Origin: Lactobacillus johnsonii ATCC 33200 | GTDB taxonomy: Bacteria; Bacillota; Bacilli; Lactobacillales; Lactobacillaceae | Length of the DNA: 64,000 nt | Assembly (NCBI RefSeq): GCF_000159355.1 | Contig: NZ_GG670120.1 | Span: 877,099-941,098, forward strand | Direction of reading: 5' to 3' | Part shown: in pieces, positions 7,966 through 13,326 of the stretch | Numbering within the stretch: position 1 is the first letter of the stretch | How the letters are laid out: every line of letters begins with the position of its first letter | Program-made: the position numbers and the translations under genes | The notes under the pieces: model-generated | Database searches by the model: none | Told to the model about the DNA's origin: nothing | Seen by the model: only the letters and a program-made list of their open reading frames with translations

Positions 7966-8553
7966 CTAATGAGCAGTTTTCTTTGCTTTAGCATTAACTC
8001 TAATTAAACTAGCAATTTGATCAATATCTGCATTATTTTGGGCAATAATCAGGTCTTTGTTTGAACGTGGATAATCAATCACTTGACCATGATTGGCAGC
8101 AAAAGCTTGTAAAAATAATTTACTGCTTCTCCCATTTCCCTCTCTAAAGGGATGAAGATAATTTAATCTATCCAGTAAAAAAGCATAGTCAACATTTGCA
8201 AGTTCTTTTTTAGAAGACAATTGTTGTATCTTTTCGTCTATTTCTTCAATTCCAAAATTAATACGAGAATACTCTAAAAACTCTGTCTCTCCTTTAACTA
8301 ATTCATAGTCTCTAATTTGACCAGCCCAATCGTAGAGCCAGCCAAACATAATTTTATGAATTTTTTTCAAATCTTCAACACTAGTGATTTTTTTATTCTT
8401 TCTCAAAAAAGCCACGGCCCGAATTCCTGAGCTTAAGTATTCTTTTTGTGCTAATTCTGCCGCATCAGTAATATTGAGTTTATTTTTAAGCGTACCATTT
8501 GGGTAAAGAAATTTTTGACGATACCATTCAGAATCCTTTACGGACTCATTCAT
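7966..8553 (-). CDS. fic: Fic-domain AMPylating (or related) toxin
   Basis: A 195-residue protein made essentially of one Fic domain. These enzymes transfer AMP (or another phosphate-containing group) from a nucleotide to a target protein. The active-site motif HPFREGNGRSSK lies near residues 133-144: the catalytic His, the metal-binding Glu and the GNGR anion loop are all present, while the second arginine of the usual HPFxEGNGRxxR is Lys. The N-terminal YPNGTLKNKL part is typical of VbhT-like single-domain Fic proteins. ATG 8553 follows GGGGTGAA and overlaps the upstream gene by 8 bp, a toxin/antitoxin arrangement with coupled translation. Target unknown. Confidence 0.88.
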   Translation of the reverse strand: MNESVKDSEWYRQKFLYPNGTLKNKLNITDAAELAQKEYLSSGIRAVAFLRKNKKITSVEDLKKIHKIMFGWLYDWAGQIRDYELVKGETEFLEYSRINFGIEEIDEKIQQLSSKKELANVDYAFLLDRLNYLHPFREGNGRSSKLFLQAFAANHGQVIDYPRSNKDLIIAQNNADIDQIASLIRVNAKAKKTAH

Positions 8554-8965
8554 TTTCTTCACCCCAAATCCGATCAATTTCACTTTTAATCTCCTTAGAT
8601 GGATTAATCGCCTCATCAAGAAGCATTAAAATATCCTCTTCATCTGGTTGCCAACCCTCTAAGTGTTCACTTTCTACAACAAATCTAATTTGTTCATACA
8701 TTTCTGGATCTTCAATATAAATGCCTTGAATCATTTGATTAGTGTCATTAATTTTCAAAGAATAAACTGGATCAAGTAATTCCAGTAAATCTCCTGGTCG
8801 CATATTTAAAGATGACGATAATGCCGATAAAATTGCGCTTGACCAATTATCTGGATTCTCATTAAGTGCTTCTTCTAAATCTTTTTCCATTAAAGAATTA
8901 CTTTGTGAAATATCCTTTAAGGTTAAATGATGATTTGTAAGTAAAATTGATATTTTTGATAACAT
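8546..8965 (-). CDS. Putative Fic antitoxin, VbhA-like C-terminus fused to an HTH-like N-terminus
   Basis: A 139-residue protein encoded just before fic and overlapping it by 8 bp. Residues 95-139 read like the small antitoxin VbhA: the inhibitory motif S-x-x-x-E-G is present as SEHLEG at 99-104, followed by a Pro-Asp turn (QPDEED) and two helices ending in a charged tail. In VbhA the motif glutamate blocks ATP in the Fic site. Classical VbhA is about 60 residues. The extra residues 1-80 look like a helix-turn-helix or XRE-type unit (LTLKDISQSNSLMEKDLEEA, then SSAILSALSSSLNMRPGDLL). It could both neutralise the toxin and repress the operon; that is inference. Confidence 0.7.
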   Translation of the reverse strand: MLSKISILLTNHHLTLKDISQSNSLMEKDLEEALNENPDNWSSAILSALSSSLNMRPGDLLELLDPVYSLKINDTNQMIQGIYIEDPEMYEQIRFVVESEHLEGWQPDEEDILMLLDEAINPSKEIKSEIDRIWGEENE

Positions 8966-9109: not shown

Positions 9110-10921
9110 TTATTCAACTGTAACACTCTTAGCCAAGTTACGTGGTTTATCTACATCAAGGCCCTTATCTTTTGATGCATAATATGCAAGAAGTTGAGCT
9201 GGCACAACAGTTAATAGAGCAGACATATAATAGTTAATTTCTGGTAAAACTACATTGTCCCCTTCTCTAGCAAAGTCTTTACCAGCAATAGTAACAACGT
9301 TAGCACCTCTAGAAACAACTTCTTGAATATTTCCACGCGTTAAATCAGCAGTTGCAGGATCATTAATTAAGGCAATTACTGGGGTATCTTTTTCGATAAG
9401 AGAAATAGTACCATGCTTTAATTCGGCTGCTGCAAAACCTTCAGTTTGAATATATGAAACTTCTTTAAGTTTTAATGCTCCTTCTAAGGCTACTGCATAA
9501 TCAATTCCACGTCCAATGTAGAAAGCATTTCGAGACTTAATTAGGTATTTATCAGCAATCTCTTTTAAACTTTCTTTACTGTCAACAAGTTGCTGCATCC
9601 CTTCTGCTGCAATAGCTAAATCATGCTTTAAATTCCAATCTTTAGCTTCTGCTTTATTAAGTGATTCGCCCAACGCCTTAGCCAGAACTGCTTGAACAGC
9701 AATTTGGGCAGTGTATGCCTTAGTAGATGCAACTGCAATTTCAGGACCAGCTTCTAAGAGCATAGTGTAGTCTGCTTCTCTTGATAAAGTTGAGCCTTCT
9801 ACATTAGTGATTGTTAAACTTGGGATATTACGCTTATTAACTTCTTTCAAAACAACACGAGAATCAGCGGTTTCTCCTGACTGAGTTAAGAAAATAAAGA
9901 ATGGATCCTTACTCATCATTGGGAAGTGATAACCAGCTTCTGATGCCAAACCAACTTCAGTTGGGATTCCAGTATAATGCTCTAACATTGTCTTACCAAC
10001 TAAACCAGCATGGTAACTAGTCCCAGCAGCGTAAATATAAATACGATCTGCTTTTGAAATAGAATCAATAATTTTTGGATCAACCTTAACATCATCATTT
10101 TCATCAAAATAAGTTTGAGAAATTTTACGCATTACGCTTGGTTGTTCATCAATTTCTTTGAGCATGTAAAATTCGTAAGTTCCCTTTGAGGCTGCATTAG
10201 GATCAATATCTAATACGTGGGGCTTACGTTCAACCTTTTTACCATCAACAGTTTCGATTGTGTAAGAATCTTTAGTAATGTCACCAACATCACCATCTTG
10301 TAAATCAACAAACGTTTTGGTTTGATCTAAAACAGAAATTGCATCAGACGCAATAATATTGAAACCATCGCCAAGTCCTAACATCATTGGTGACTTATTT
10401 TTAGCAATAAAAACATGCTCTGGCTCAGTGTTATCAACTAAAAGGAAAGCATATGAACCTTTGACTAATTTCAAAGCTTCTTTAAACGCAGAAAAACCAT
10501 CTAAATTCTTCTCACGAGCAATCTTACTAATTAATTGGACAACCACTTCAGTATCAGTATTAGAGTAGAATTTTACTCCTTGTAAGTATTTTTCTTTTAA
10601 TTCGGCATAATTTTCAACAACCCCATTATGAACTAGGTAAAAACGCTTAGTTTCATCAAAGTGAGGGTGAGCATTATCTACTGTTGGCTTACCATGTGTA
10701 GCCCAACGAGTATGACCAATTCCTACTAATCCTTGTTCATCAGGAGTTAGTTTTTCTTTTAAGTTAGAAATTCTACCAACCGCTTTTGTTAGATATTCGT
10801 TTCCATTTAAGTCATTTAAATACATACCTGCAGAATCGTAACCACGATATTCTAAGTTAGTTAAGCCATTTAAAATAATATCTCTTGCAGGTTTTCCAAC
10901 AACACCAACAATTCCACACAT
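9110..10921 (-). CDS. glmS: Glutamine--fructose-6-phosphate aminotransferase
   Basis: A 603-residue enzyme, full length for the family. It makes glucosamine-6-phosphate from fructose-6-phosphate and glutamine, the first committed step of UDP-GlcNAc and so of peptidoglycan synthesis. The N-terminal glutaminase domain (about 1-240) starts with Met-Cys2-Gly, Cys2 being the nucleophile once Met is removed. Two SIS sugar-isomerase domains follow (about 285-420 and 455-590), and the end is KPRNLAKSVTVE. The start follows AAAGGAGAA. A TTGACC-17-TATTAT promoter and a leader hairpin precede it; I do not see a glmS ribozyme. It is monocistronic. Confidence 0.98.
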   Translation of the reverse strand: MCGIVGVVGKPARDIILNGLTNLEYRGYDSAGMYLNDLNGNEYLTKAVGRISNLKEKLTPDEQGLVGIGHTRWATHGKPTVDNAHPHFDETKRFYLVHNGVVENYAELKEKYLQGVKFYSNTDTEVVVQLISKIAREKNLDGFSAFKEALKLVKGSYAFLLVDNTEPEHVFIAKNKSPMMLGLGDGFNIIASDAISVLDQTKTFVDLQDGDVGDITKDSYTIETVDGKKVERKPHVLDIDPNAASKGTYEFYMLKEIDEQPSVMRKISQTYFDENDDVKVDPKIIDSISKADRIYIYAAGTSYHAGLVGKTMLEHYTGIPTEVGLASEAGYHFPMMSKDPFFIFLTQSGETADSRVVLKEVNKRNIPSLTITNVEGSTLSREADYTMLLEAGPEIAVASTKAYTAQIAVQAVLAKALGESLNKAEAKDWNLKHDLAIAAEGMQQLVDSKESLKEIADKYLIKSRNAFYIGRGIDYAVALEGALKLKEVSYIQTEGFAAAELKHGTISLIEKDTPVIALINDPATADLTRGNIQEVVSRGANVVTIAGKDFAREGDNVVLPEINYYMSALLTVVPAQLLAYYASKDKGLDVDKPRNLAKSVTVE

Positions 10922-11018: not shown

Positions 11019-11054
11019 GATGTTTTATCTAAAATTGGTCTATATCAAAAGATG

Positions 11055-11107
11055 AAAAAATTGCACAAAAAAGACGCCCCATATGGAGCGTCATATCAAT
11101 GATTTGG
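11055..11107. repeat. Direct repeat copy A: duplicated tRNA-Arg 3' end plus terminator
   Basis: 53 bp that match 13207-13260 with three substitutions and one single-base gap. It contains the last 8 nt of tRNA-Arg(UCU) (CCAAATCA on the minus strand), the GACGC...GCGTC terminator stem and the AAAAAATTGCAC tail, but the rest of the tRNA is absent. The stem here has a C-A mismatch (GACGCCCC against GGAGCGTC), as expected of an unused copy. Confidence 0.85.
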
Positions 11108-11184
11108 TGCTCATAAAAAATATATAGAAAAGCTTACATTTTTCTTTGCAATCCATTTCATCTTTATTCATCAAATGAAATACG

Positions 11185-12801
11185 CTACTCTTTCACTTCA
11201 TTTAAATTAATCACTTTATTAGCCAATTGTTTTATTTCTTCTCTTAGATGATGAGTTACCATTATAACCGTTTTATTCTTCTTTGATAAAATTGCCTTTT
11301 CAAGTTTAACGCTAGCAGACTTATCTAATGCAGAAGTTGCTTCATCTAATAAATAAATAGGTGTATCTCGTAGAATTTCTCTAGCAAATGAAATACGCTG
11401 CTTCTGTCCACCTGATAATTGCTCTCCCTGATCATTCAATACAGTATCCACGCCATTGGGAAGTTTAGCGATCATATCTTCAAGGCCACATTCATGAATA
11501 ACGTTATTTATTTCAGCATCAGGTATATTTTTGCCTAGAGTCAAGTTCCACTTTAAAGAAGCTGAAAAGATATAAGGATCTTGTTGTAAATATGATATTT
11601 TTTCATGTAAGTCATTGTCTGAAATTGCTGAATAACTTATATCATTCATTTTTATATCACCACTATTATTTCTTAGTAGTCCCGCAATTAAATTAAGAAT
11701 GGTGGACTTACCGGCAGCTGAATCACCTACCAATATATATTTATTATTAAGCTGGAAATCTAAATTTAAATTTTGGAATAGAGGCTTATCGTTTTTAGAA
11801 TATTTGTATGAAATGTTGTTAAATTTTATATTACCTAATTCTAAGTTTTTAACTATTTGATTGTTAGGGTTCAAATCAAACCCTGATTTGAATTTCTTCA
11901 TAATAGGTTTAACTGATTTGAACTCTTGCCAATTAAAACTAATACCACTTAATTCCGCAAAGATGGTACTTGCGAAAAATTGCGCGCCACTGATAGTTCC
12001 TACTGGAGTTAAATTATGCAATATTAGCCAACCCGTTTGTCCCAAAATAATTACCTGACTAATAAATGCCAACCCATTTGTGATAGCCTGTGTAACTCCA
12101 GCTGCTTTAGCATATTGTACGGTATGCTTTTTAACATCATCTGAAGACTTATTAATTTTCGTTACGATAGTCTGAGGTAAATTAGCAAGAAAAAGAGTAT
12201 TAAATCTATTTAGTATATCGTTTATTGTATTGACTAAGCGTTCATTAGCATGGGTATATTCCAAGGATTTTTTAGCCAATATTTTTGAGAACAGATTTGG
12301 AACGATACCCATAATAATTGTCAAAACCACCACAGTAATTACTAGACTGAAATTGAAGTAGGCTAATGTTAACATTCCAAAGATTATTTCAAATACTTGC
12401 CTGACAATCATTAGAAAATCAGTGATACCAAAATTATTAATTGTAGTTATATCATTGGTTAGCCATGAACTATAGGTAGATACAGTTTGCTTATGAAAAA
12501 TAGCGTAATTAGATCTTGATAATTCAGTAGCGATATCTTTTCTAATTAACTTATCTACATTTTGTGAGAATCTAGCTTGTTCAATATTAACCAAACAATT
12601 TACTATTGCGTAAACAATGTAGGCTAATCCCATTACTGCAACCCACATAAAGAATTCATTTGCTCTAAATTTTGCAACAGCACTCAAGGCATTTGCACTA
12701 GAGATACCGGCTAAAGTTAGAAAACCTGCATTAACAACTATTAGAAATACCACAAACAGGAATTCTCATTTTAATTTTCTAAAATATTTTAATAATTCCA
12801 T
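11185..12801 (-). pseudogene. ABC exporter (fused membrane and ATPase domains) with a nonsense codon at position 12
   Basis: The only well-placed start is ATG 12801, behind AAGGAG. That frame runs MELLKYFRKLK, then TGA at 12768-12766, then continues unbroken for 526 codons to 11185. The TGA probably replaces TGG. The body has an exporter-type membrane domain with about six helices (about residues 1-280) and a full nucleotide-binding domain: Walker A GDSAAGKST, signature LSGGQKQR, Walker B IYLLDEATSALD. A GTG inside the first helix, at 12753, could only allow poor restart. The gene lies alone in a segment between two tRNA-end repeats and was probably carried in. The substrate (peptide, lipid or drug) is unknown. 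Confidence 0.8.
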
Positions 12802-13206
12802 ATATACTCCTTAGTTTATTAAATTTTAACTTAAATAATAAACATATAATTAAAATAAATCAATATTTTTTAATGAAAGTAAAATAAAAATTGCACCATA
12901 AAATCTGCTTAAAATTAATTTATTGATGAGTAATTGAGAATATTAAAAGTTCAATTATTAGAAAAATTATGTCATAAACGAAAGCCCGATAGCACAAATT
13001 GCACTAAATGGTCAAAAAGAGTATTAGTTTTTGTAGAAAACTGGTAATACTTTTTAGAATTCCTTGTATCTCTTTGCTGTAATTTAAATGTAGTATATTT
13101 AAAGCTTGTTGCAAAATCACTGATATAGTTCTTTTAAAAATAATTCCATTAACTTAAAGAAAGCAACAAATTAATTAGCCTGGGGGGGTCATTTGGGGGG
13201 GCAAAT
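12802..13206. other. Non-coding end of the tRNA-Arg segment with repeats and G runs
   Basis: About 400 AT-rich bp without a supportable gene. It holds two copies of AAATTGCAC (12888-12896 and 12996-13004; two more lie in the flanking direct repeats), a long hairpin at about 13018-13060 built on AGTATTA / TAATACT with an inner GTTTT / AAAAC stem, and two runs of seven G (13182-13188 and 13195-13201) separated by TCATTT. G runs of this length occur nowhere else in the window. They could be protein-binding arm sites of a lost integrase. Confidence 0.55.
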
Positions 13207-13260
13207 AAAAAATTGCACAAAAAAAGACGCTCCATACGGAGCGTCATATCAGTGATTTGG
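13207..13260. repeat. Direct repeat copy B, overlapping the intact tRNA-Arg
   Basis: The intact partner of 11055-11107: tail AAAAAATTGCAC, terminator stem, spacer and the 3' acceptor strand of tRNA-Arg(UCU). The pair brackets 2.1 kb with the broken ABC exporter, as attL/attR would in an element inserted at a tRNA 3' end. Confidence 0.85.
13219..13245 (-). terminator. tRNA-Arg(UCU) terminator
   Basis: A perfect stem GACGCTCC / GGAGCGTC with an ATAC-type loop and seven T on the minus strand, 8 bp after the tRNA 3' end. Confidence 0.9.
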
Positions 13261-13326
13261 GTGAGATTCGAACTCACGACCCACGGTTTAGAAGACCGTT
13301 GCTCTATCCAGCTGAGCTACCAAACC
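13253..13326 (-). tRNA. tRNA-Arg (anticodon UCU)
   Basis: A 74-nt cloverleaf. The acceptor stem is GGTTTGG / CCAAATC with discriminator A, the D arm is GCTC/GAGC, the anticodon loop CTTCTAA has anticodon TCT, and the T arm is GTGAG-TTCGAAT-CTCAC. The CCA end is not encoded. It reads rare AGA codons. Confidence 0.97.

Follow-up and report, generated by a model that had tools for sequence, protein, structure and literature searches.

The window, a 64,000-nucleotide stretch of the genome of Lactobacillus johnsonii ATCC 33200, contains a junction between glmS and a tRNA-Arg(UCU) gene at which a short repeat occurs twice, with a single ABC exporter gene lying in between. The features of this junction, all on the minus strand, are as follows:

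9110–10921, minus strand: glmS, the chromosomal gene at the far side of the junction (from the ORF list; start at 10921)
11052–11107, minus strand: copy A, the attR-side repeat, with 8–9 nt of tRNA left; putatively the original chromosomal terminator, now 3' of the ABC gene (glmS-side flank as at the empty site of G036)
11185–12801, minus strand: ABC exporter half-transporter gene, with an in-frame TGA at codon 12 (12766–12768) and open from a GTG at 12753
12803–12892, minus strand: DNA upstream of the ABC gene, with homology to the stretch preceding a homologue at another locus in relatives
12998–13110, minus strand: probable degenerate antitoxin-RNA promoter/terminator region of a phage Fst-type toxin-antitoxin, toxin ORF not preserved (local alignment)
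13180–13203, minus strand: remnant of a phage attP arm, TTTGCCCCCCCAAATGACCCCCCC, with two degenerate TGACCCCCAAA repeats (same arm in G030, phi jlb1, KC5a and the scars of G015, G011 and G033)
13205–13260, minus strand: copy B, the attL-side repeat, comprising tRNA 3' end, terminator and GTGCAATTTTTT tail (repeat search and alignment)
13252–13326, minus strand: tRNA-Arg(UCU), the intact target gene (ARAGORN; Rfam RF00005, 69.3 bits)

In an Rfam scan of the window, the tRNA alone scored above the cut-off. Between the two repeat copies the ABC gene is the sole ORF, and neither an integrase nor any structural phage gene was found within these 2.1 kb. Beyond glmS, positions 7966–8965 encode a protein with a Fic/DOC domain, and the ORF overlapping this gene weakly matches an HTH of the Cro/C1 type. 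The two may constitute a toxin-antitoxin pair; the Fic gene behind glmS is also present in the relatives examined.

The original prediction had described a 53-bp sequence present once with the tRNA and once next to glmS, and the repeat was recovered at exactly those positions. In a gapped alignment across the whole genome, the direct repeat measures 53–54 bp at 93% identity (E 1.6e-15 to 9.5e-16), a similarity far above chance expectation, with a start-to-start spacing of 2153 bp and no match in the genome beyond copies A and B. It is made up of the last 8–9 nt of tRNA-Arg(UCU), the terminator and the tail, placing the tRNA 3' end at both element boundaries, with a share of only 8–9 nt in copy A. 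The terminator fold is kept in copy A, with a hairpin energy of -14.6 kcal/mol versus -16.8 kcal/mol in copy B, and the oddity of its stem is a single G-U wobble. This feature had been taken for a mispaired stem and attributed to relaxed selection, an explanation that finds no support in the window, as the same wobble occurs in the functional tRNA-proximal copies of three relatives (G006, G030 and G015) and at the empty site of G036. A true stem mismatch is restricted to the outer copy of G006. Lying downstream of the ABC gene, copy A could act as its terminator.

Phage traces are found on the inner side of copy B. The degenerate TGACCCCCAAA pair directly behind it corresponds to the integrase-side pair of the phage, and no second pair of this type was found elsewhere in the window. 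By their position, and by what is generally known of such integrases, these repeats are putative integrase arm-binding sites. No right-hand phage arm (P') was found near copy A, so that attR is recognised by the repeat alone; the P' arm has also been lost in G015 and G095. Furthermore, the region at 12998–13110 aligned with the promoter/terminator segment of the phage antitoxin RNA with a local score of 62, versus 28.9 ± 3.8 for dinucleotide shuffles, none of which reached 62 (0/300). The match is short, about 110 bp at 76–79% identity, the toxin ORF is missing, and the window gave no RefB11 match in Rfam. No close relative of the G030-type integrase is encoded in the window's genome (best 24–27% identity). 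Most of the insert is non-phage by its sequence relationships, since the phage collections searched (IMG/VR and INPHARED) contain no relative of the ABC gene or of the DNA close around it.

The same junction was compared across one genome per species, several of them MAGs (G006 with 79% completeness and 4% contamination). Nine Lactobacillus genomes, the window's included, carry glmS beside tRNA-Arg(UCU), and a tenth, G088, is alike up to its contig end inside the ABC gene. The original prediction had pointed to an empty tRNA-Arg–terminator–glmS junction, or a larger integrase-bearing insert at the same place, as states to be sought among strains, and both exist. In G036, there is one repeat copy and no insert, and the tail leads directly into the glmS promoter, as does the flank of copy A on the glmS side. 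In G030, by comparison, 37.5 kb separate the two copies, a 367-aa tyrosine integrase (Pfam Phage_integrase and Arm-DNA-bind_4) lies directly behind the tRNA at attL, and the far copy (attR) has 46 nt of tRNA. Two prophages in IMG/VR also encode an integrase of the G030 type (96–98%), and in one of them attR abuts glmS; IMG/VR 2562617156_000002 is an integrase-bearing prophage at this junction.

Intermediate states are also found. The scar of G015 and G095 (the latter L. taiwanensis) spans no more than about 440 bp, or roughly 0.4 kb. Apart from the phage arm it contains a type I toxin-antitoxin of the Fst family (hits to Pfam Fst_toxin and Rfam RefB11), and its attR retains 28 nt of tRNA; this toxin-antitoxin is 94.5% identical to the KC5a copy just before the attP end. 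In G011 and G033, a single repeat copy is left with the phage arm still behind it, followed in G011 by about 40 bp that, read by eye, resemble the 3'-terminal part of the integrase gene in G030. The 2.1-kb ABC scar of the window recurs in G006 and G089 at 94–95% identity, and in G088 up to the contig end. In a glmS tree, the four ABC-scar genomes group together with G036 just outside; support is 100/100 for the five and weak (89/94) for the fork uniting the four. This topology would fit a single gain of the scar after the split from G036, and a precise loss in G036 is a possible alternative.

This series bears on the simplest reading of the repeat, in which the copies are two mere terminators, or in which recombination, homologous or illegitimate, duplicated the tRNA end in tandem, with no integrating element involved. 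The repeat does include the terminator, and both copies fold, but the phage arm repeats stand behind copy B only, and an empty site as well as full integrase-bearing prophages occupy exactly this junction, so that the reading is already contradicted by the series and deserves next to no credence.

Among named phages, the closest parallels are phi jlb1 (KF767351) and KC5a (DQ320509), temperate phages of Lactobacillus gasseri. Coverage of the G030 prophage is 84% at 92% identity for phi jlb1 and 82% at 88% for KC5a. Both phages have attP arms of paired TGACCCCCAAA repeats on either side of the att core, of which the window keeps one arm, and a tyrosine integrase that matches the G030 integrase at 55–60%. 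In addition, the 3' half of a tRNA-Arg serves as their att core, and an Fst-type toxin-antitoxin adjoins attR, whereas the window retains a probable remnant of the antitoxin region only. They differ in that their core corresponds to tRNA-Arg(CCU), not UCU; a direct search of IMG/VR for the exact UCU-type arm gave no match. The RefB11 sRNA (RF02848)/Fst type I toxin-antitoxin (PF13955) is intact at this site in G015, G095 and the IMG/VR loci, whereas the window has a probably related antitoxin-RNA promoter/terminator region with neither a toxin ORF nor an Rfam match. The locus also resembles tDNA islands of the Islander type, whose ends are marked by a regenerated tRNA gene and a displaced fragment (PMC4383910). 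The element in the window likewise has an intact tRNA at one end and a displaced 3' fragment at the other, but it is without an integrase and its displaced fragment is worn to 8–9 nt. The site is not described in the papers found, an absence that carries little weight because subscription literature lay mostly outside the search.

Two further observations concern integrases at tRNA-Arg genes. In G011 (C1:600781–641967; L135, L163), two integrases of the same type lie 40 kb apart at tRNA-Arg(CCU), which suggests tandem phi jlb1-like prophages. In the more distant Lactobacillus G007 (C1; L150, 1309–1384), tRNA-Arg(UCU) is followed at about 118 bp by an integrase belonging to a different subtype, so the same tRNA is targeted elsewhere in the genus.

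Altogether, the repeats are very probably the worn ends of a phi jlb1/KC5a-type prophage at tRNA-Arg(UCU), nearly all of which has been deleted, with an ABC exporter in the scar. The attL/attR arrangement of an integrated element that has lost its integrase, as originally proposed, is borne out by the empty site, the prophages and the phage arm beside copy B; the element itself is better seen as a prophage of this type than as an unspecified island. The tyrosine integrase of a temperate phage resembling phi jlb1 and KC5a would have inserted the phage into the tRNA gene, in its 3' half. The phage attP would thereby have rebuilt tRNA and terminator, giving copy B with the arm repeats behind it, and the native tRNA end and terminator of the chromosome would have been displaced to the glmS side as copy A. 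The assignment of copy A as the displaced chromosomal end and of copy B as phage-borne follows from their flanks, that of copy A on the glmS side matching the empty site and the inner one of copy B matching phage, although any gene conversion between them could obscure which is the original. A deletion would then have removed nearly the whole prophage, integrase included, leaving the attL arm, a damaged toxin-antitoxin region (beside attR in these phages) and an attR cut to 8–9 nt of tRNA. The order of these events, like the deletion itself, is inferred. The shared att core of G030, phi jlb1 and KC5a starts in the anticodon loop; since copy A does not include the loop portion and no second arm is left, excision seems unlikely, and the element in the window is probably immobile.

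The ABC gene was expected to be a lone, broken exporter. It is indeed single and has an early stop at codon 12, but this is one stop only, and loss of function is not certain because a start at the GTG, from which the frame runs open from 12753 to 11185 (522 codons), would cost just 16 residues relative to the ATG with a ribosome-binding site at 12801. Codon 12 is TGA in the window only and sense in G006 and G089, the other two of the three complete scar copies compared. Among these three copies, dN/dS is 0.13–0.18, which points to past purifying selection. The motifs GDSAAGKST, LSGGQKQR and IYLLDEA are all present. NCBIfam scores fell far under the curated cut-offs, with CydD nearest, and the product appears best described as a half-transporter without family assignment. 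Just 3' of the stop codon, positions 11163–11189 repeat 27 nt of the gene's interior at 11376–11402 (81%, same frame, RISF), and this downstream copy is kept in G006, G088 and G089.

Homologous DNA is found in G030 and G011 (75%), and in G095 and contig C15 of the MAG G006 (73–74%). The G030 homologue lies between the genes for a LacI-family regulator and a penicillin-binding protein, and the homology also spans about 70–90 bp upstream. At this locus (L113, 7047–8681), close relatives differ in whether they have the ABC homologue; in the window's genome, the LacI-type and penicillin-binding protein neighbours are about 75 bp apart with no ABC gene between them. Since relatives carry the homologue at a chromosomal locus, a host locus is the probable source from which the exporter reached the tRNA, with transport by a phage a further possibility. 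Known phage cargo was rejected as a source, the gene having no match in IMG/VR or INPHARED, and so was a plasmid, merely short ATPase-domain matches being found. Under the prophage-scar reading, the gene would have entered the scar with its own promoter region and been maintained by selection in the clade until the window's genome recently acquired the stop.

In a variant of this reading, the exporter would have been a lysogenic-conversion gene of the prophage, located near attR and spared by the deletion. The position between the toxin-antitoxin region and attR is typical for such cargo, and the dN/dS values indicate selection on the gene, but the lack of any relative in phage records or IMG/VR and the chromosomal setting of the nearest homologue (75% DNA identity) make this variant rather unlikely. 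Alternatively, a small non-phage island could have brought the exporter as cargo and later lost its own integrase, the phage-like arm being left from an earlier scar. Such an island would accord with an ABC homologue elsewhere in the relatives' genomes, with the lack of a phage carrying this gene and with solo-arm scars (G011 and G033) as possible insertion places. It is nevertheless improbable, as no integrase or other island gene was found and the order from arm to antitoxin-RNA region is that of the prophage-derived scars in G015 and G095.

On a wider view, the prophage scars at tRNA-Arg(UCU) would serve these lactobacilli as a permanent landing site: time and again the residual arm and toxin-antitoxin region would take up host genes, the ABC exporter being one example, which would then be retained behind the insulation of the duplicated tRNA terminator. 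This is a speculative proposal with little probability. The understanding of the mechanism is unchanged by the present results, and the scar, well resolved, is of an ordinary kind. It is tied to a named phage type and belongs to an unusually complete decay series at one junction, comprising an empty site, a full prophage, a toxin-antitoxin-only scar, a solo arm and a cargo scar. The series thereby illustrates how far an integrated phage can be eroded while the tRNA keeps its phage-supplied 3' end and terminator.
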